DNA of 64,000 bases from Cynocephalus volans (Eukaryota > Chordata > Mammalia > Dermoptera > Cynocephalidae): NCBI RefSeq assembly GCF_027409185.1, contig NC_084463.1, forward strand, positions 47,858,907 to 47,922,906, given 5' to 3'. Each line of letters opens with the position of its first letter. Position 1 is the first letter of the stretch. Below are positions 9,816 to 53,925 of this stretch, piece after piece. Position numbers and translations under genes: made by a program. Under the pieces are notes generated by a model. That model was not told the DNA's origin. It was given only the letters and a program-made list of their open reading frames with translations, and searched no databases.

Positions 9816-9895
9816 TAAGCGAACAGAGGGGACAGAACCGGCACCGACCGCCGGAAGAAGCCCCCTGATCGCCCGGAAACCCGCCATGTTACAGC

Positions 9896-9906
9896 CACTT
9901 TCTGTA
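9896..9906 (-). promoter_or_regulatory. Possible histone downstream element
   Basis: On the minus strand 'acagaaagtgg' lies about 11 nt past the stem-loop. Purine-rich GAAAG-type elements at this spacing pair with U7 snRNA in replication-dependent histone genes. Inferred from position and base content. Confidence 0.45.
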
Positions 9907-9916
9907 CCAAACGAGT

Positions 9917-9932
9917 GGCTCTCAAAAGAGCC
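9917..9932 (-). terminator. Histone mRNA 3' stem-loop
   Basis: Minus strand 'ggctcttttgagagcc': a perfect 6-bp stem (GGCTCT/AGAGCC) with the loop TTTG. Replication-dependent histone genes end in this hairpin, usually with loop TTTC. It lies about 39 nt after the H3 stop codon. The last loop base differs from the common C, a position that tolerates variation. It indicates non-polyadenylated, SLBP-dependent processing. Confidence 0.85.
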
Positions 9933-9971
9933 TTTGGAGTGACAGGACCTCAGGGCGATCGCCCGTGGAGC

Positions 9972-10382
9972 CTAGAAAGGCGTCCCGCGGAGGCGGCGCG
10001 CCAGCTGCATGTCTCTCAGCATAATGGTGACACGCTTGGCGTGGATGGCGCACAGGTTGGTGTCCTCAAACAGCCCCACCAAGTAGGACTCGCAGGCCTC
10101 CTGGAGCGCCATCATAGCCGACATCTGAAAGCGCAGGTCTGTCTTGAAATCCTGCGCGACCTCTCGCACCAGCCTCTGGAACGGCAGTTTGCGGACCAGC
10201 AGGGCGCTGGATTTCTGGTAGCGGCGGATCTCGCGCAGCGCCACCGAGCCGGGCCGAAAGCGGTACGGCTTCATCACGCCGCCGGTGGCCGGGGCGCTCT
10301 TGCGGGCTACCTTCGCGGCCAGCTGCTTCCGCGACGCCTTGCCGCCGGTCGACTTCCGCGTCCTCTGCTTGGTGCGAGCCAT
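9972..10382 (-). CDS. Divergent histone H3 variant (natural Met36), intronless
   Basis: A single-exon 136-codon frame, the exact length of canonical H3, starting at 10382 with MARTKQ and ending at 9972. The histone fold is clear: [44 protein letters not shown]4, K9, K14, K18, K23 and K27 are kept. Differences from canonical H3 include T6R, A7T, P16S, T22A, A24V, K36M, H39Y, Y41F, T45S, E59A, I62V, I74V, S86M, V89M, A98S, P121L, K122R, I124M, I130L and a changed tail (GTPF for GERA). C96 is H3.1-like, V24 and S98 recall H3t, and R122/M124/L130 recall primate H3.Y. TATA, CCAAT boxes and a histone stem-loop surround it, and it has no stop or frameshift, so it looks functional. An upstream in-frame ATG (10589) is ignored because it precedes the TATA box. 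I cannot name the exact orthologue. Confidence 0.88.
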
Positions 10383-10441: not shown

Positions 10442-10520
10442 TCGCTTTTATAGACACCGCAGCGCTCCCATTGGTTGGCCGCCGGGTGGCGCGATGGCAG
10501 GCTATGCTCTGATTGGCTCT
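10442..10520 (-). promoter_or_regulatory. H3 variant core promoter (TATA and two CCAAT boxes)
   Basis: Minus strand: TATAAAAG at 10452-10445, CCAAT at 10474-10470 (accaatggga) and CCAAT at 10516-10512 (gccaatcaga). The TATA box lies about 63 nt before the start codon, predicting a short leader of about 35 nt. Paired CCAAT plus TATA is the usual proximal layout of cell-cycle histone genes. Confidence 0.8.
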
Positions 10521-10530
10521 TAAGGCGCTC

Positions 10531-10583
10531 ATGCACTGGGTCCCTGGGCAGGCCCGGAGGTGCTGGCATGGTGTGCCTGGTTT
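10531..10583 (-). repeat. Single VNTR unit of the deleted-L1 family beside the H3 promoter
   Basis: 'gggtccctgggcaggccc' followed by 'ggtgctggcatggtgtgcc' is the reverse complement of about two thirds of one ~80-bp VNTR unit in 16600-17780. It sits about 15 bp upstream of the distal CCAAT box. No further part of the element is visible on either side. Confidence 0.7.
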
Positions 10584-15744: not shown

Positions 15745-18318
15745 GAATACCAGGGTTTCTAGTCAAGATGGCAGAATAAACGGTTCCCAGCGTCACTCTC
15801 TCCCACAAATCAACCAATTTACAACTGTAAAAATGTAACATCAGCCAAGCTGGGGCTGCTGGAGCACAGGGAAAGAGGAGGAGAGAGACCTATGGAGTTC
15901 ATGAAGGAGGGAGAAACTACAATGAGAGAAAGAAAAAGCTGCTCTGAGAGTTTCTGGCTGCAGCTGCTTTAAGGCTGGGGCTGCTGAGCACACAGAGCAG
16001 AAGCCTGCAGAAGCCACAGCTGTGCACTTCAGATTGTGTTACTTGGAGGCGGCAGGAGAGAAGAGGGCCTCGGCAACCCCCAGGAAAACAAGACCACTAA
16101 TAGATTTCCCATGGACCCATGCAGGAGCGAGGAACCAGAACAACCAGAAAAAGGGAGCCCCTCAGAGGCTGGTGAGTCATTGCAAGGGACAGCACCAGGC
16201 CGGTCCCGTGGGAAGTGTTTGTAGCACAGTCGTTGGGAGAGACATGCCCACCAGGAGAACACTGAGACACAGCAAGGACAGCCGATCTGCCCCCCAATCA
16301 GCACAGGACCACTCAGAGGAGACTGGTCAGGAATGCAGAATTGCATGAGATGCAGTTTGATGAAAAACTCAGGCCCAAATCATAGATTCTACAGAACACA
16401 GATCCACTGGGTCTCTGGAGAGCTGGAAGTACCTATAAGGTCAACCATTAAACCCTGAGCTGCACAAAAAGCCTTCCCTAGGGAAACAGCAGCAAAGCAG
16501 CAATTTAAACAACCACACACTCAAATACTGGTTCCCACAGGAAGTTCCCCCATATTAGAAGCAAAGGACAAAAAATTAGTTCTGGCCTGGGCACACCACC
16601 AGAACCTTGGGGCCTGCCTGGGAACCAGAGGCTTGGATCTGCCGACTGGACCCCACTCCCACTTCCAGGCAAACTGTGTCAGTGCCTCGGGGCCAGCATG
16701 GGGACCCAAGCCATGGAGAAGGGGACTGGACCCTCCTCCCACAACCAAGCACACCATGCCAGCACCTCCGAGCCCACCAGGGGACCCAAGGTATGGAGAA
16801 GGGGACCGGACCTCTCTCCCATAACCAGGCACACCTAGCCAGCACCTTGGGTACTTCCCAGGGATGCAAGGTATGGAGCCAGGGACCAGACCCTCCTCCC
16901 ACAACCAGGCCCAACATGCCAGCACCTTGGGGCCTGCCGAGGGACCCAGTGCTTGGAGAAGGGGACTGGACCTCTGTCCCACAACCATGCACACCAAGCC
17001 AGTGTCTCGAGGCCTGCCAGGGGCCTGGGGCATGGAGAAGGGGACCGAAACACCCTCCTACAACCAGGCACACCATGCCAGCACCTTGGAGCCCACCTAG
17101 GGACCCAGGGAATGGAGAAGGGGACCGGACTTCTCTCACACAACCAGGCACACCAAGCCAGTGTCTCGAGGCCTACCCAGGGTTCTGAAGCATGGAGAAG
17201 GGGACCGGACCTCTCTCCCACAGCCAGGCACACCATGCCAGTGCCTCGGGGCCCACCCAGAGACCCAAGGCATGGAGAAGGGGACCGGACCTCTTTCCCA
17301 CAACCAGGCACACTGTGCCAGCACCTTGGGGCCCGCCCAGGGTCCTGAGGCATGGAGAAGGGGACCAGACCACTCTCCCACAACCAGGCACACCAGTATA
17401 GTGCCTCAGGGCCTGCCCAGTGACCTGAGGCAAGCAGAAGGGGACCAGACCTCTCCCCCACAACCAGGCACACTGTGCCAACACCCAGGGGCCCACCCGG
17501 AGTCCTGAAGCATGGAGAAGGGGACTGGATCTCTCTCCCACAACCAGGCACACTGTGCCAGCACCTTGGGGCTTTCCCAGGGACCCAAGGCATGGAGAAG
17601 GGGACCGGACCTCTCTCCCACAACCGGACACACCATGCCAGCACCTCAGGGCCTGCCCAGGGACCCAAGGCATGGAGAAGGGGACTGGACACACCTCCCA
17701 CAACCTGGCACAAGGCACCAGTGACTTGGGGCCTGTCCACAGACCAGAGACATGGAGAAGGGAACCAGACACACTCCACAACCAGTCATACCGCCAGTGC
17801 CAACGAGCATACCAGAAACGGCACCTCCCTGTAGGTGGCCCACTGCAGCCTCCACAATAACCATGGCTGCTGCAAAAGTGACTAGACATCACAAGCACCA
17901 CACAAATGGTCCACCAACCACTGGAGTGCATTCGCACAAGGAGAGTCACCAGCAGAGTCAAAGAAAAGAAGAGGATGTCTCTCTCCACAAAGCCCATTTC
18001 AGAGTGACAGAAGCAGCATCTGCTCTATGATAATATTGGGGGACCCAATCACATCTCTCAGCATTGGACATATCATCTAGGCAACAAATTAACAGAATAA
18101 CCATGATTCTTTCAGAAGGAGAGAAGAAATCTAGGGTAATTAGAGGGGGGAGGGGGAGGGAATGGGGGATGGGGAGAGATTGGACAAGGGGCATAAAGAT
18201 TAATTAGGATTTGTAACAATACGTATGCTAGTAATATTGATTTGATCAACATATCTCAATGTTCAACCCCCAAAATATAATCGATTTTGATTCAATAAAT
18301 AAAATAAATTTTTAAAAA
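15745..18318 (+). mobile_element. Non-autonomous, internally deleted LINE-1 with ~80-bp VNTR (copy 1)
   Basis: Flanked by the 14-bp direct repeat 'aagaactacaaatc' (15731-15744 and 18319-18332), a target-site duplication inside the host L1 ORF2. Order: L1-type 5'UTR start ('agtcaagatggcagaata'), 5'UTR body, VNTR (16600-17780), distal 5'UTR ending 'cagagtgacagaagcag' like the host L1 at 12050, then about 70 bp of ORF2 endonuclease text ('cagcattggacatatcatc'). It then jumps to a G-rich 3'UTR ('gggggagggggaggg') and an A-rich tail. ORF1 and almost all of ORF2 are missing, so it must move in trans. A second copy at 47446-49061 has the same junctions, so this is a family. Confidence 0.85.
16600..17780 (+). 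repeat. VNTR of the deleted LINE-1, ~14-15 units of ~80 bp
   Basis: Each unit carries 'catggagaaggggaccgga', 'cccacaaccaggcacacc' and 'ccagcaccttggggcc' variants. Unit starts recur about every 79-80 bp (for example 16954, 17032, 17111, 17190, 17270, 17350). Because 80 is not a multiple of 3, the long ORFs over it on both strands (up to 314 codons on the minus strand) rotate frame and are not credible proteins. Confidence 0.9.
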
Positions 18319-32072: not shown

Positions 32073-33675
32073 CTAGGAGAAACTCTGAGCTTTTCCATCC
32101 GGGGATGGATCTCCAGGACCATGCTCTGGGGCTGGGATGAGCCAGCCCTCAGCAGGAAAGACATAGGCCGCCTGGGTGGCCATGGCATATAAGGTCTGCA
32201 CTGCAGTGCACAGAGACCCCCGGAGCTGGGCAAGATCAGAGAACTGCTCCCTGGTCAACGGAGAATGGATTTGCTGGGCCTGTACCTGAGCTATGTCTTG
32301 ATAAGTGACCTCACACGTAGCACGCAGGAAGGTCACCAGGCTTTTCCGAAGTGGTGGTGGGTGGTGTCTTAGGGACCCAAATCTTGGCTTCTTGCTGTGC
32401 CCAGTGTGGGCCCCCTGCAATTCCCAACCGTGGACGTCATAGGTCTCCTCAATTTTCCTGAAGTTCACAGGGTCAGAGGCCTTTGGTTTCTTTTCTGAAG
32501 TCAAGCTGTGCTCATCTCCTAGACAGTTCCCTGGGGAGGAAGCAAGGGAGTGAGAGACTTGCCAGAAAAGTCTCCACAGACCTCTTTCCCGGGATCTCAC
32601 CGTGCACCTTCAGGTGAACTCCACTTGTCTCTCCTCCTCCTTCCTGACCTTCTGAGTCTCCATAATGAAATGAGGCTGAGCTCCTCATAGGTACCAAAAC
32701 ACCCTCTGAGTCCCAGGATCTCTACGACCCTCTCAGACGCTGAGAAACATCCTTTCTGCCCAAGCCCTGTATAAGTTTCCTGCTGGTCTGCTCTCAGGAC
32801 AAAAAAGGACCTACCTGTTCCATCTTGGCCACTGTCCTTGGAACTGATTTTCCTCTTCCTGGACTTCCTCCCGCCTGAGCTGGACTCGGATTCTGTGGAT
32901 AATTGAGAGTTTGAGGGAGTGCCTACAGCTGAACACCTTAGCAACCCTGGTCCATCCTGGACACACAAGCAGCTGAGGCTGCACCCAAAACTCAGTGCTC
33001 TTTCATTCTCGAGTCCAGGATCTGTAAGGCCCGGCCTGCCCAGAGCTCCCAATTCCATGCCCAGGGGAAACTGTGTTAACCCATCCCCTGTCCCTTTCCC
33101 TCCCTGAGAGAATCAAATCTTACCTGATCTGTCAATGCTGTTTCCAGCGTTAAGCTCAGTTTCCTTGGAATTCTCCTTCTCGTTCAGATTAAGTTCTGGT
33201 CCTAGAGGAAAAGGGAGCTTAGGTGACTGGCCTCCTCTTAGGTCCTCAGAGCCCCCTAGTCTGTTCCCAATCTGTATTTGTGGGTCATTCTCTCAACCAA
33301 GGCTGCTCAGTCAGTGTCAAGTGTAAATGGGAAGAATACGCTTCCAAGGGATAATTGCCACATTTCTCAAGGCCCCTGGAGAGTGATGACTCCTTTCCCA
33401 AGCCCAGTCTCAAAGTTAAACTCTACCAAAGAAACATCCTCACTGTCCCTGAGTCTACCTTCCTTCCAGCCTCCACATGGACAGCTCGAGTCCGTACCTC
33501 GCCTCTGAGTGCAGTTCTCACTGGAATGTAAAGACAGAGTCTTGTGTTTCTCTTCAGATGGTTTCTCCTCCTCCTCTGAGCCACTTTCTTTAAAGGAGAG
33601 TTGTTGGAGAGAAGGCTGGTCAGTGCAGTGCTGGAGGGAGCAGTGAGGTTCTGCTTCTTCCGTTCCCGACTCCAT
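32073..33675 (-). CDS. FRG2: FRG2-family protein, four coding exons, intact
   Basis: Four exons on the minus strand: 33675-33498, 33201-33124, 32892-32815, 32530-32073. All junctions have GT donors and AG acceptors in phase 1, giving 792 nt and 263 residues with no stop or frameshift. Exon 1 encodes MESGTEEAEPHC...CTDQPSLQQLSF, like the human FRG2 N-terminus. Exon 3 holds the basic stretch RKSRKRKISSKDSGQD, probably nuclear-localising. Exon 4 carries the family hallmarks LRKSLVTFLRA, QDIAQVQAQQIHSPLT and YAMATQAAYVFPAEGWL. Human FRG2 is about 278 residues; this one ends early because of a changed stretch after DGKAQSFS. FRG2 proteins are nuclear, of unknown biochemical role, and sit beside DUX4/D4Z4 on human 4q35. 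I chose 33675 because it aligns with the human start; an in-frame ATG at 33693 is possible. Confidence 0.92.
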
Positions 33676-34440: not shown

Positions 34441-35544
34441 TTGCATATTTTCCACATAAAGAAAATAATGTACAGTTTTAAAATTGTATACATGTTCTAT
34501 TTTCTCTAATGTTTGGAAATGAAAAATACCAAATTATATGGTTTTTTTTTATTAGATACACACCTGTGTAATAAAATAAAAATACAGGAAAAAATACATA
34601 CCAAATAAAATACTCCTTTCTGTCCTAAAAGTGGTGGAGATAATTAGATCAAGTGTGATTTCATTGATGTCACTACGGTAGTACCGATGCTAACCTAATC
34701 AACCTCTGATCTCAGAGGCAACAAAAAGCCCAGCTGGAGAGGAAAACTTTCCCTCTGCCACAGCATTCTTTGGTCATGCTGGGAGCGCCGCTGTGTTCTG
34801 TTGAATCAGCATTCAAAATCTGAGATAGTAAGACAGGTGGATCATGATTGCCATTCTTGTACCTTTGGTGATTTTCTCTTGTTTTCCTGATTAAAGTTGG
34901 TTGTGGATATGACTATTGCATCATCAAATTTCAGACAACTCATGGACCACTTGTCTGTGTCCTGTCCTAAAAAACCAGTAGCTACATACAGAAGACCCTT
35001 AACCTTTTCAAGCTGCCTGTGATTGATGCTGACTCACTGACCTCCCTCCTCCTCAACCCAAAGAGAATTTGAAAAACCGTCAGGCCTTAGAACACTTAGC
35101 AAGGACCAGTAGGTGCCCGTGAACTGCTGGGGTGGGGCCCTTCTCCACAACCCTTGGGCTCTAATAAAGAGAAGAGAAACCTGAAACCAAGGAAGCTTCA
35201 GCAACTCTAGACCTCAGGGTTTTTAACAAGATTAACAGAAGTGAAGCTCACAGACCTTCAGTGCTTCCTTCATTCCAAAACACAAGCAAAGACTGTGTCC
35301 TTGCTTCCCATGACCCAGGTGGGGACAAGAGGTGAGACACATTTAGACACATAACATGGTTGGTTCTGCAGGAAAGAATCACCGCAGAGGAAGATTCCAC
35401 TGTAGAAGTTTCCCAGGGAACTTCAGCTAAAGCATCAGCAAAACCGAGGGGTAATGAGGGAATCTTACGACTCTCTGATGGTGTTTCCTCCCTGGTTTTC
35501 TGCTAATTGCTCTTTACAAGTCTCCTGATTTGCTTCATGTCTAT
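34441..35544. other. Unassigned stretch
   Basis: No recognised gene or repeat. Confidence 0.3.
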
Positions 35545-45731: not shown

Positions 45732-46658
45732 CTACATTGTCCTCTTTTGCATCACACTGATTCTGCCCCCGTGGGAAGGAGGCCTGGATTGGAGTGGTGA
45801 GGAGGACCCCATCCTTTCCTCCAGCTGCTGCCCTGGTGAGCTCTGCAGCGTGTCGAGCAGAGCCCGCAATTCTTCCTCACTGAGAGGTGGATCGGGTGGT
45901 AGAGGGGCTTCCTGCTGTGGATCCAGATTCACCACAGGATACTGTGTGGGTGCAAGGGGCCATCTCAAAGCTTGAGGTTTGTGCACGATGCTGGTCTGCC
46001 TGCTCACGAGATGAGATGGCTTCTTAGTTGGTACTGGCTGCTGCCACCACACGGGTGACTGGGTGTGTGCGGGCTGCTGAGGTGCCCTTTCTCCAGATTC
46101 CTGCTGGACCATCATGTCCTGGGCTCCTCACTGCACCACTGCATGAGGTGGGATGTGCTGAGCCAGGCCCTGTGAGTGTTCCTCAGTGTTATCTGTTTGA
46201 GGCTGCCCCTTTATGGGCAGAACTGCCCGGCCAGTGTGCCCATTGTCCTTGTCATCCCGGCACTTTCCTTGGTATGCACACCAGAAAGGAGTCTGAGTAT
46301 GTGACAGCCCCCTCCTAGAGCTGGTGCCAATGACGTGTGACTCATAAGTGTCAGAACAGGTTGAGAGAGTTCTCCTGGCATAGCCTGGGTGAGCTGGAGC
46401 ATCATGAGCCTCGGTGCCTGCTCATTCAGCCCCCAGAGGGATCCCAAAGACCAAAGGACATGTGGGGTGGAGGAAGAGCTGGCACAAATGACTTCTTGCT
46501 GCTGAAAGAAGTGGAAGGAAGAAGACAATGGTCGCTGCTTGGGGCAGTGCACAAGCCGCTTTGCTGCAGCTGAAAAGTCAGGCGAGGTCTCTGATGTGGA
46601 CCTTCTGCCAGGGAATTCATGGGTCCACTTCTGCTCTGGCCTGGGTGCCAAACTCCTT

Positions 46659-47021: not shown

Positions 47022-47445
47022 CTCCTTGGTTCTAAAACTAGATATGAATTCTTGATTCTGGAAAGCCTGTTTCTTTAGCCAGTTCCTCCTTAGTGGCAAT
47101 TCCAGGGAACCTGGTTTTTTCTCTTTTCAAAAGCTTGAAGCAGGATGCTGTTTTGTGCTCTTGTAATGGATGTCCACTGTCATCTGCCTTCTCTGGGTAA
47201 GGTTTCCTGAGTCCGAGGCCGAGGTGGCTCCTGCTGAGGAAGTTGCTCTCCTCTCGAGGAGCCTGCAGACCCCGACTGGCTCTGCCTGAGGCGTCGTCCT
47301 CTCTGGTTTTGAAACAAATCTCTTTTCTGACTCAGGAACACCAATTTCTTTGGCCACTTTTTGTCTGGTGGTTATACCAGGGTAGGGGCTCTGTTCAAGC
47401 AATGCCTGCAGGGCATCCCTTTGACTTGGGGTCAGAGCCATCGTC

Positions 47446-49061
47446 TTTCTTTCTTTTTTAAAAAAATTAATTTTTATTGAGTCAAAATTGATTATTCTTT
47501 TTTGGGGGTTCAACATTGACATATGTTGATCAAATCAATATTACTAGCATATATATTGTTACAAATCATAATTATTCTTTTTGCCCCTTGTCCAATCTCT
47601 CCCCATCCCTCTCTCCTTCCTCCCTCCCCCCTCTAACTACTCTAGATTTCTTCTCTCCTTCTGAAAGAATAATGGTTACTCTGTTGATTTGTTGCCTAGA
47701 TGATCCGTCCAATGCTGAGAGGTGTGATCAAGTCCCCCAATGTTATCATAGAGCAGATGCTTCTTCTGTCACTTTGAAATGGGCTTTTTGGAGAGAGACA
47801 TCCTCCTTCTTTCTTCATCTCTGCTGGTGACTCTCCTTGTGTCAATACACTCCAGTGGCTGGTGGACCACCTGCATGGTGGTTGTGGTGTTAGCTGCTTT
47901 TGTGGCAGCCATGGTTATTGTGGTGGCTGTGGTAGGCCATCCACATGGAGGTGATGTTTTGGGCATGCTCCTTGGTGCTGGTGCTGTGCCTGGTTGTGGG
48001 GAGTGTCTGGTCCCTGGATCCATACCTTGGGTCCCCGGGTGGGCCCCGAGGTGCAGCGTGGTGTGCCTGGTTGTGGGAAAGGGGTCCAGTCCCCTTCTGC
48101 ATGACTTGGGTCCCCAGGCAGGCCCTGAGGCACTGGCATGGTGTGCCTGGTTGTGGAAGGGAGGGTCCAGTCCCTGGTCCATGCCTCATGTCCCCTGGTA
48201 GGTCCCAAGACACTGGTGGTGTGCCTGGGCTGGAACTAATTTTTTGTCTTTTGCTTACTTCTAAAATGGGGGAATTTCCTGTGGGAACCAGTACTTGAGC
48301 TCTGTGGTTGAGCTAAATTGCTGCTTTGCAGCTGTTTCCCTAGGAAAGGCTTTTTGTGCAGCTCAGGGTTTAACGGTTGACCTTAAAGGTGCTTCCATCT
48401 CTCCAGAGACCCAGTGCACCAGGATTGTATAGAAACTCTGGTCTGGGCCTGAGATTTTCATCAAACTGCACCCCATGCAATTCTATATTCCTGACCAGTC
48501 TCCTCTGGCTGGTCCTGTGCTGATTGGGGGGCAGATCGGCTGTCCTTGCTGTGTCCCAGTGTCCTCCTGGTGGGCACATCTCCTCCAACATCCGTGCTGC
48601 AAATGCTTCCCATGGGATGGGCCCTGCACTGATCCCTTGTGATGACTCACCAGCCTCTGAGTGGCTTCTTTTTTTCAGCTGTTCTGGCTCCTCACTCCTG
48701 CGTGGGTCCATGGGAACCCTATTAGTGTTCTTGCTGTCCTGGGGCCACAAGGCCCTCTTCTCTCCTGCTGCTTCCAAGCATCTCCATCTGAAGGGCACAG
48801 CTGCGGCTTCTGCTGGTTCCTGCTCCATGCGCTCAGCAGTTCCAGCCTTAAAGCGGCAGCAGCCCAAACACTCAGAGCTGATTTTTCTTTCTCTCATCGT
48901 GGTTTCTCCCACCTTCATGTACTCTGTAGGTCTCTCCTCCTCTTCCCCTGAGCTCGAGCAGCCCCAGCTTGGCTGATGTTACATTTTTATGGTTGTAAAT
49001 TGGTTGATTTGTGGAAGAGTGACGCTGGGGACCATCTATTCCACCATCTTGACCAGAACTC
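47446..49061 (-). mobile_element. Non-autonomous, internally deleted LINE-1 with VNTR (copy 2)
   Basis: Same architecture as 15745-18318, on the minus strand: L1 5'UTR start ('ctggtcaagatggtggaata', 49055), a short VNTR of three to four ~80-bp units (about 48000-48240), distal 5'UTR, the ~70-bp ORF2 piece ('cagcattggacggatcatc') joined to 'attctttcagaaggagagaag', a purine-rich 3'UTR and an A tail at about 47452. The flanks gacggctttga (left) and gacgatggctctga (right) look like one diverged target duplication. Confidence 0.85.
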
Positions 49062-49919: not shown

Positions 49920-51434
49920 AATATCTTCTCTTTTTAATTATAATTTTACTCACAATACTAATTTTACTAATTACCATAACCATTACTAACATTTATAAAA
50001 ATATCTTCTACACTTCTATGTAGAAACATCAATTTCATATGCTTTTATAATCTGCCTAAATTTAACCCTGATATTTATTTATTCATACCAAGAAATAATC
50101 ACCTCAAACTGATATTGAATGACTATTTAATCCTTAAATCTTACACTTGGCTTCAAGTTAGATTATTCCTCAATAATATTTGTGCTCATAGCACTTTCTT
50201 GTCATAATGATTGATCATATAATTTTTAATAAAATATATACATTCAGATCCAAACATCAAACCATCCAAATGAGTTCTTTAAATATTTACTTATGTTTTT
50301 CATCCCCATACTAATTTTAGTTACTGCTAACAGCTTCTTCTGACTCTTCATTAGGTGAAAAGTAGTAGAAATTATACTATTTTTACTTATCAAAGAATAA
50401 TATGGCTAATTAGATACAAATATAACAGCAACTTTATATAATCCTATTGGAGATATTGGACTTGTTCTATCAATGCCATGATTTGTATTACACTCAAACA
50501 CTTGAGAATTTTAACAGATTTTCGTGCTCAACCCTACCCTGATATTCTCCAATTAATCAGCCTTTTTCTGGCAGCAATGAGTGAATCTACCCAACCTGGC
50601 CTTCACCCATGTCTACATTCAACAGAAGGAGGCCCCGCATCAGCCTCAGCCCCACTCCACTACAGCACAGAAGTTGTAGCAGGAATTTTCTTATTCATTT
50701 GCTGTTACTCATTAACAGAAACAACAAAACAAACACTAATGGTATGCCTAGCTGCAATTGCCACTTTATTCAAAGAAACCTGTGTCCTAACACAAATGAC
50801 ATCATAAAATTATTGTGCATTTTTTGTCAAGTCAAGCAGGTCTCATGATAATTGCTATCATCATCAATCCACTACATCTAGACACTCCTTACATTGCACA
50901 TGCATTCTTTCAAGCTCTGCTGCTCATACGCTTTGGATCAATTATTTATAACCTTAATCACAAACAAGCTATTTGAAAAACAGGAGGCCAGTTCAAAGCT
51001 GTACCTGTCACCACTTCAGTCAGTGTCTGAAGCCTGGCACTTGCGGCTGTGCCCCTTCTTACACGCTTCTGCTCCAAAGACTCAAATACTGAAACCACAA
51101 ACATGTCCTATACTAATGCCCAAGTCCTGGTAATCAGACTTAATGCCACCTCCCTAACAACTGTCTGTGGTACTCTAGTTATTTTCTTTGCACTTCTAGA
51201 ACAACCTCAGTTTTCAACTCTAATTCATGTCAATGAAAACAGCCCCCTTTTAATTAATTCAATTGAGTATCTAATGATTGGTAGTATTTTTGCTAGATTT
51301 GCTATCTCTAACAACATTACTCCTATAAATATTTCACAAATGGCTATGCCACCCTACCTAAAGCTCTCAGCTCTTGCCATAAGTATCTTAGGCCTTACTA
51401 TAGCATTAGAATTTAGCCTAATAACATATTGGAT

Positions 51435-51850
51435 TAGTCCATTTTGTTGCATATAAAAAAATACCTGGAACTGGGTGATTTATAAAGAAAACTGACAGTT
51501 ATTGTTTACAGTTTCTGAGGCTGGGAAGTCCAAAGTCTGTTGATGATGACACTGACCCAGGGGTCTCACACGGCAAGATGGTGGAAGCAGAGAGAGCAAA
51601 TGAGAGAGAGACAGATTCTTCTCTTAAAGCCCTCAGAAACACTCCCTTGACCACAATGTTTAATCAATTCACTACTGCATGGCCCTATAATCCAATCACC
51701 GCTTCAAGGCTCCACCTTTCAATTACCATAATAGGATTTCCCACCCTCTTAACAGTCACAGTGGGGGCTAAGTTTCTAAAGCATAATGCTTGGGGGAAAT
51801 AATTCAAGCTTCAATGAATTTTGGGGGGACATAATTCAATCTACTACACA
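51435..51850 (-). mobile_element. MaLR LTR, antisense, inside the numt
   Basis: 'tggattagtccattttgttgc', 'ctggaactgggtgatttataaag', 'ttctgaggctgggaagtcc' and the far end 'gggggacataattcaat' are the antisense order of an MST-type MaLR LTR. It interrupts the ND5 relic between its LMT and LNLRF parts. Confidence 0.8.
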
Positions 51851-53755: not shown

Positions 53756-53925
53756 CAGGGCCAGCCCGTGGCTCACTCGGGAGAGTGCGGTGCTGACAAC
53801 ACCAAGGCCCCGGGTTCGGATCCCATATAGGGATGGCCGGTTCGCTCACTGGCTGAGCGTGGTGCTGACAAGACCAAGTCGAGGGTTAAGATCCCCTTAA
53901 CGGTCATCTTAAAAAAAAAAAAAAA
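53756..53925 (+). mobile_element. tRNA-derived SINE dimer
   Basis: 'gggccagcccgtggctcact', 'cgggttcggatcccatatag', second monomer 'gttcgctcactggctgagcg', 'gttaagatccccttaacgg' and an A tail followed by (GA)n. The best-preserved dimer in the window. Confidence 0.9.

Follow-up and report, generated by a model that had tools for sequence, protein, structure and literature searches.

Histone H3 genes derived from H3-4 (H3t) and carrying methionine at residue 36 on one chromosome of the Philippine colugo: a candidate germ-line K36M family

Replacement of lysine 36 of histone H3 by methionine (K36M) is the dominant mutation of the human bone tumour chondroblastoma. The H3K36M tail binds in the pocket of SETD2 and traps the enzyme, an inhibition that is relieved by G34R or P38V. 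K36M did not inhibit NSD1 or ASH1L in vitro, so that some K36 enzymes may be unaffected (PMC5335568). SETD2 reads G33, G34, V35, P38 and R40 of the H3 tail, and a side-chain contact at residue 39 is not inferred in the sections available (PMC7495481). A second system of relevance here is the testis histone H3-4, which is defined by its linkage to TRIM11 and TRIM17 and by a valine at position 24. Its product, H3.4, is described as the main H3 of differentiating mouse spermatogonia, where it builds up genome-wide, and the gene as essential to spermatogenesis; the same report mentions H3K36 as a target of PRDM9 (PMC13396413).

The window analyzed here is a stretch of 64,000 nucleotides from the Philippine colugo, Cynocephalus volans (C4:47858907-47922906). 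On its minus strand, at 9972..10382, lies an H3-4 (H3t)-derived histone H3 ORF of 136 codons plus TAG (ATG at 10382, TAG ending at 9972), with a Pfam Histone match of 1.8e-42. Direct reading of that strand gives GTG-ATG-AAG-CCG for residues 35-38, as an earlier note on this DNA had claimed: codon 36 (10272..10274) is ATG (Met) instead of AAG (Lys), and codon 39 (10263..10265) is TAC, tyrosine replacing histidine. Lacking Lys36, the protein does not count as a K36-methylatable H3. Compared with H3.1 of the same genome (L034), 23 of the 136 aligned positions differ: T6R, A7T, P16S, T22A, A24V, K36M, H39Y, Y41F, T45S, T58S, E59A, I62V, I74V, S86M, V89M, A98S, P121L, K122R, I124M, I130L, E133T, R134P and A135F. 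K4, K9 and K27 are retained and the C-terminus reads GTPF. The description in the earlier note (an intact germline H3 of canonical length with Met36, about twenty substitutions, altered residues 6-7, the GTPF tail and the three conserved lysines) is thus borne out, and the gene turns out to have many copies in the genome. Its interpretation stands only in part: the gene was correctly recognized, while the strand, the H3-4/H3t origin and the family were missed, and the fixed partner change H39Y and the K36-bearing parental gene were overlooked.

The window protein is identical at 131 of 136 positions to another copy of the family (L010), at 122 to the colugo H3-4 (L020, see below) and at 113 to H3.1. 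V24, C96 and S98 are all present. The closest PDB sequence is the H3t of 5b1l, which we take to be the mouse protein, followed by 7e8d and by H3.1t (8z50, 3a6n). The 7e8d entry is H3.1 itself with M36, presumably made for the structure of NSD2, which we assume to be its partner.

A search of the genome returned 118 matches, among them 25 full-length H3t-like copies at C4:39.9-50.9 Mb. None of the 25 holds an internal stop or a frameshift; stop codons in relatives had been named in the earlier note as a finding that would speak against the gene. Methionine 36 is present in 24 of the 25, the exception being L020, which has K36 and H39. The alignment comprised 24 family loci, including L020, plus the window copy and seven canonical H3 genes, from 40 loci fetched; left out were the distant L033, L040 with its altered C-terminus, the H3.3-like or diverged L043-L047, and L042 and L048, which are canonical H3 loci containing masked stretches. 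Besides L020, which stands alone, the copies form group A (n=13, including the window copy), group B (n=6, L022-L027) and group C (n=5, L028-L032). M36 and Y39 occur in 24/24 copies of these groups and are the sole fixed residues found neither in L020 nor in H3.1. The invariance of M36 is not significant in itself because, of the 129 residues present in every one of the 24 copies, 58 vary and 71 are invariant. A7T and P16S are found in the window copy only, among the 24 M36 copies.

In group A, the residues read by SETD2 (G33, G34, V35, P38 and R40) are kept in 13/13 copies, so Met36 is everywhere accompanied by the intact G34 and P38 that inhibition by H3K36M requires; G34C is seen in a single copy of group B and G33S in a single copy of group C. 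C96 and S98 are also found in all 13 group A copies, as in L020. Residue 24 is V in 14 of the 24 copies (10/13 in group A), G in eight and L in two. Y41F occurs in 10/13 group A copies, P121L in 12/13, and R128L in 7/13, the window copy excepted; core changes such as the last two may weaken the histone fold. Group B combines K9N, R26C and K27Q with K36M, K4 being kept and the frames open, and group C has a deletion of seven residues near 106-112, yet its frames are open and its 3' stem-loop pattern is retained. Since group B has lost K9 and K27, and group C lacks seven residues, neither is expected to act as a normal histone. In the tree, drawn with a midpoint root, L020 adjoins group A; a single branch separates group B (100/100), and likewise group C (100/97), from all the other sequences, which is not so for the subgroups A1 and A2. 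A single origin of K36M and H39Y is compatible with this tree when rooted on L020.

L020 lies at C4:50874339 and has V24, C96 and S98. SPRY exons are found about 25 and 36 kb downstream of it, with a RING/B-box exon between. The first, whose best PDB matches are other SPRY proteins, is taken here to be TRIM17 from its position; for the second, the PRYSPRY domain of TRIM11 (7qs1) gives a match of 379 bits. Because V24 and the TRIM11 linkage agree with the definition of H3-4, L020 is the colugo H3-4/H3t. The HIST3 location beside TRIM11/TRIM17 is found for L020, as regards TRIM11, and not for the window copy, which is 3 Mb away and is a paralogue, not an orthologue, of H3-4. No H2A or H2B partners of HIST3 were found in the pieces searched, which cover part of the L020 neighbourhood and in which the H3 positive control worked. 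As a side observation, SPRY families of the TRIM/butyrophilin type are expanded in this genome, at C15:146.5-148.0 Mb and at C4:33-37, 57-66 and 83-86 Mb (150 matches scored).

Groups B and C are about 94-95% identical to L020 over 3.9-4.5 kb, of which 2.6-2.8 kb lie upstream of the gene, lengths that are lower bounds since the compared stretches end there and the true extent may be larger. Group A is alignable to L020 only from -150 on, with 92.9-94.1% identity over 1.8 kb and 88-90% over the next 1 kb. The homology to the parental locus therefore ends about -151 from the ATG, at position 10533 of the window (minus strand), and different DNA lies beyond. An origin as retrogenes is ruled out: the promoter and, in groups B and C, about 3.9-4.5 kb of DNA with the gene are common to L020, and the copies are thus DNA duplications. 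With a mammalian substitution rate of 2.2e-9 per site and year, a divergence of 5% would correspond, as a crude estimate, to roughly 12 million years.

An intronless ORF followed by a 3' stem-loop, as in replication-dependent histone genes, is what the window copy presents. The stem-loop, GGCTCTTTTGAGAGCC, lies at +39 from the stop (9917..9932, minus strand) and agrees with 15 of the 16 consensus positions, one loop base being off. The same pattern is found at +39 in 25/25 copies, with 16/16 positions in 23 of them and 15/16 in the window copy and L009. The Rfam family Histone3 (RF00032) matches 9891-9937 (minus strand) with 32.0 bits (E 1.7e-07 for 401 bases), under the gathering score of 34; a scan of the window at the gathering threshold returns no histone stem-loop, and the weaker match appears with an E-value threshold. 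Among the 20 family loci searched in this way (L029-L032 were left out), 13 exceed the gathering score, namely 11/12 of group A (not L009), L020 and L028, and none of the six group B loci does. A putative histone downstream element, CAGAAAGTGGCTGTAAC, is assigned by position at 9888..9904 (minus strand). Upstream, on the same strand, sequence patterns correspond to a TATAAA at -70 (10447..10452) and to CCAAT at -92 (10470..10474) and -134 (10512..10516). The TATAAA is in the same place in 13/13 group A copies and at -69 in L020 and groups B and C, and all three boxes (TATA at -69/-70, CCAAT at -91/-92 and -133/-134) are present in 25/25 copies.

The window gene is part of a larger repeat unit. 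On the minus strand, the same unit holds an FRG2-like exon at 32073-32600 (Pfam match), a weaker FRG2-like frame at 32597-33058 (under the Pfam cut-off) and half of a homeodomain exon at 47127..47522 (21.4 bits against a cut-off of 22.9), of an intron-type DUX-like gene, which matches an array on C12. An ORF at 45732..46115 (minus strand), with no Pfam match, contains a motif resembling the DUX C-terminus, LSEEELRALLDTL. Both are assigned to DUX by motif, and the exon also by its matches to the C12 array. C4 holds seven long matches to the FRG2-like sequence, each adjoining an H3 gene of group A1; three have no stop in the stretch and four have one. In 7/7 A1 copies the DUX-like exon match, the FRG2 match and the H3 gene have one orientation, the distances from H3, according to the coordinates, being 4-26 kb for FRG2 and 18-43 kb for the DUX-like exon. 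None of the 25 copies has the DUX4-type site TAAYYYAATCA in the 1.2 kb upstream of it, so that control by DUX is unsupported and the link is positional only; the window holds two such sites, at 34691 and 51688. The array on C12 (89.97-90.33 Mb), together with C96, is a large tandem array of about 4.3-kb units, whose frames, mostly of 460 aa, match the DUX-like exon, and is probably a DUX macrosatellite. Elsewhere in the window, an ND5-like frame at 51049-51456 on the plus strand (3.1e-19) is probably a nuclear mitochondrial insertion. A weak tRNA match at 53835-53906, also on the plus strand (32.4 bits), is possibly a tRNA-derived SINE, since similar matches recur in L022, L024, L025 and L027. 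Long overlapping frames at 16500-17800 and 47770-48200 resemble a G+C-rich minisatellite, and similar minisatellite words are seen by eye just upstream of -151 in the group A H3 genes.

The selective regime differs among the groups. The ratio omega of group A is 0.306, 0.419 and 0.496 under the F3X4, F1X4 and FQ codon models, each of which rejects a value of 1 (2dlnL 22.65, 12.54 and 8.17, respectively). For group B (0.53-0.69) and group C (0.75-1.09) omega is not distinguishable from 1; any codon gapped within a set was excluded from the tests of that set. The dN/dS comparison proposed in the earlier note, in which neutrality would have counted against the gene, favours constraint in these codon models for group A and not for B and C. 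The codon-model value for canonical H3 is 0.002, and published values for H3-4 are 0.46 for pseudogenes and 0.024 for coding genes (PMC13396413). A column count with CpG, transition and transversion classes is only marginal for group A: 34 nonsynonymous against 38.7 expected (P 0.11) with stops in the draw, P 0.02-0.06 over 13 reference choices without them, and P 0.006-0.03 minus the last codons, which were chosen after seeing the data. The divergence of the coding sequence is at least that of many flank stretches. Regarding intactness, neutrality predicts for group A 5.9 frameshifts and 1.8 stops, that is 7.7 disabling events, and none is seen (P about 4e-4); the indel expectation comes from flanks of the same copies and that for stops from the column counts, noncoding indel rates may exceed coding ones, unalignable flanks (up300-1200 in A, dn300-1500 in C) are omitted, and the totals of indels and substitutions were added up manually. 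The corresponding probabilities for groups B and C are 0.06 and 0.12. These values suggest that group A is under moderate constraint, weaker than that of a canonical histone.

Judged from sequence and descent, these copies most likely form an H3-4-derived family, probably expressed in testis, whose normal sequence is K36M. We tentatively lean towards a fuller reading, in which the window gene is one of an amplified family of replication-type germ-line H3 genes with K36M as their regular state and with an inhibitory group A. The intronless stem-loop genes descend from the colugo H3-4 by segmental duplication; one founding copy would have gained K36M and H39Y, and the K36M family would then have spread across about 11 Mb. 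Group A, with its 13 genes, would most likely be expressed in the male germ line, the setting of the parental H3-4, and its products would enter chromatin there as replication-type H3; the resulting nucleosomes could not receive methyl groups at K36. Given that all the tail residues read by SETD2 are kept, group A is predicted to inhibit this enzyme if made; its Met36 tail would probably fill the active site of SETD2/NSD and lower K36 methylation on neighbouring H3. Several points speak against a germ-line histone: the omega of group A, near that of H3-4 pseudogenes and far above that of coding H3-4, the marginal column count, the neutral look of groups B and C, the loss of the native upstream sequence at -151, the window stem-loop below the Rfam gathering score (L009 and the six group B loci being likewise absent at that threshold), the core changes that may weaken the fold, and the retention of V24 in only 14/24 copies. 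A bolder version, in which the colugo evolved and amplified its own K36M oncohistone, is rather unlikely; group A, expressed in the testis and/or the early embryo, would then poison SETD2/NSD and possibly PRDM9 as well, the effect growing with dose, with H39Y as a tuning change, and the remodelling of K36/K27 methylation would be a normal or a selfish trait.

The pseudogene-like omega of group A, the neutrality of B and C, a coding divergence not below that of many flanks and the breakpoint at -151 would suit young passengers of segmental duplications, not usefully expressed, in which K36M is founder drift and which are too recent to have broken. The A1 copies travel with FRG2 and DUX-like fragments, with stops in 4/7 of the FRG2 stretches and one or more of the DUX-like copies broken. 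This is a serious possibility, against which stand the lack of any disabled copy where several were expected in group A alone, an omega below 1 in all three codon models, and the stem-loop pattern and core promoter boxes preserved throughout. The fixation of H39Y alongside K36M in every copy, and the frequent Y41F of group A, could instead point to a structural "blank" germline H3, in which the loss of K36 methylation is the point and H39Y/Y41F, or a low dosage, prevents enzyme trapping. We consider this improbable, as a specific side-chain interaction is not inferred for residue 39 (PMC7495481, in the part available) and group A keeps the residues that SETD2 does read. Only one assembly was examined; an assembly or sequencing artefact is nevertheless very improbable, for 24 separate loci on one chromosome, with distinct coordinates and divergence, agree on M36.

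Regarding novelty, only the window protein and two clusters, P0042 (12 members) and P0124 (four members), carry M36 among 131 proteins (the best 120 of about 8,000 matches per search, plus translations), in a database clustered at 90%, where a canonical H3 with K36M as its single substitution would escape notice. Both clusters are public Cynocephalus gene models and are not independent of the C4 loci; Galeopterus is not named among the protein matches listed (again the best 120 of about 8,000 per search). Among the papers listed in a search of the literature, judged by titles and the first part of abstracts, none deals with a natural K36M H3 or with colugo H3, and the main text of the paper on H3-4 evolution (PMC13396413) mentions neither colugo, Dermoptera nor Cynocephalus. 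The family is a new H3-4 variant; should it prove active, no earlier natural K36M oncohistone is known to us. About two dozen intact germline K36M genes, millions of years old by their divergence, would show that K36M can be tolerated or used, and through them nature offers an experiment on what K36 methylation does in spermatogenesis or in early development.

Compared with the H3K36M oncohistone, the window copy shares the Lys-to-Met change and its G-G-V-M-K-P context; unlike it, the colugo gene is germline-encoded, has an H3t backbone with 22 further differences from H3.1, H39Y and Y41F included, and its inhibitory action is predicted. H3.Y and H3.X are primate histones induced by DUX4. The window gene is, like them, a lineage-specific extra H3 gene, and a 10-residue run of its product is presumably also found in H3.Y; unlike them, it derives from H3-4 and not from H3.3, and its family lacks the DUX4-type motif in the proximal upstream DNA. 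The closest relative is the eutherian testis histone H3-4/H3t (H3.4, HIST3H3), with which it shares the intronless stem-loop structure, V24, C96 and S98, and the window copy descends from the TRIM11-linked L020 by sequence and locus. In the sections available, the published account presents H3-4 as a single HIST3 gene of eutherians with no V24 paralogues outside (PMC13396413); the colugo is an exception to this single-copy view, adding 24 copies elsewhere on the chromosome that carry K36M and H39Y. A precedent for a natural "oncohistone" strategy is EZHIP, a germline protein described as blocking a histone methyltransferase by a Lys-to-Met-like mechanism, although it is not a histone and targets PRC2 and K27 rather than the K36 enzymes (PMC6513997, PMC12713659, PMC12842176).
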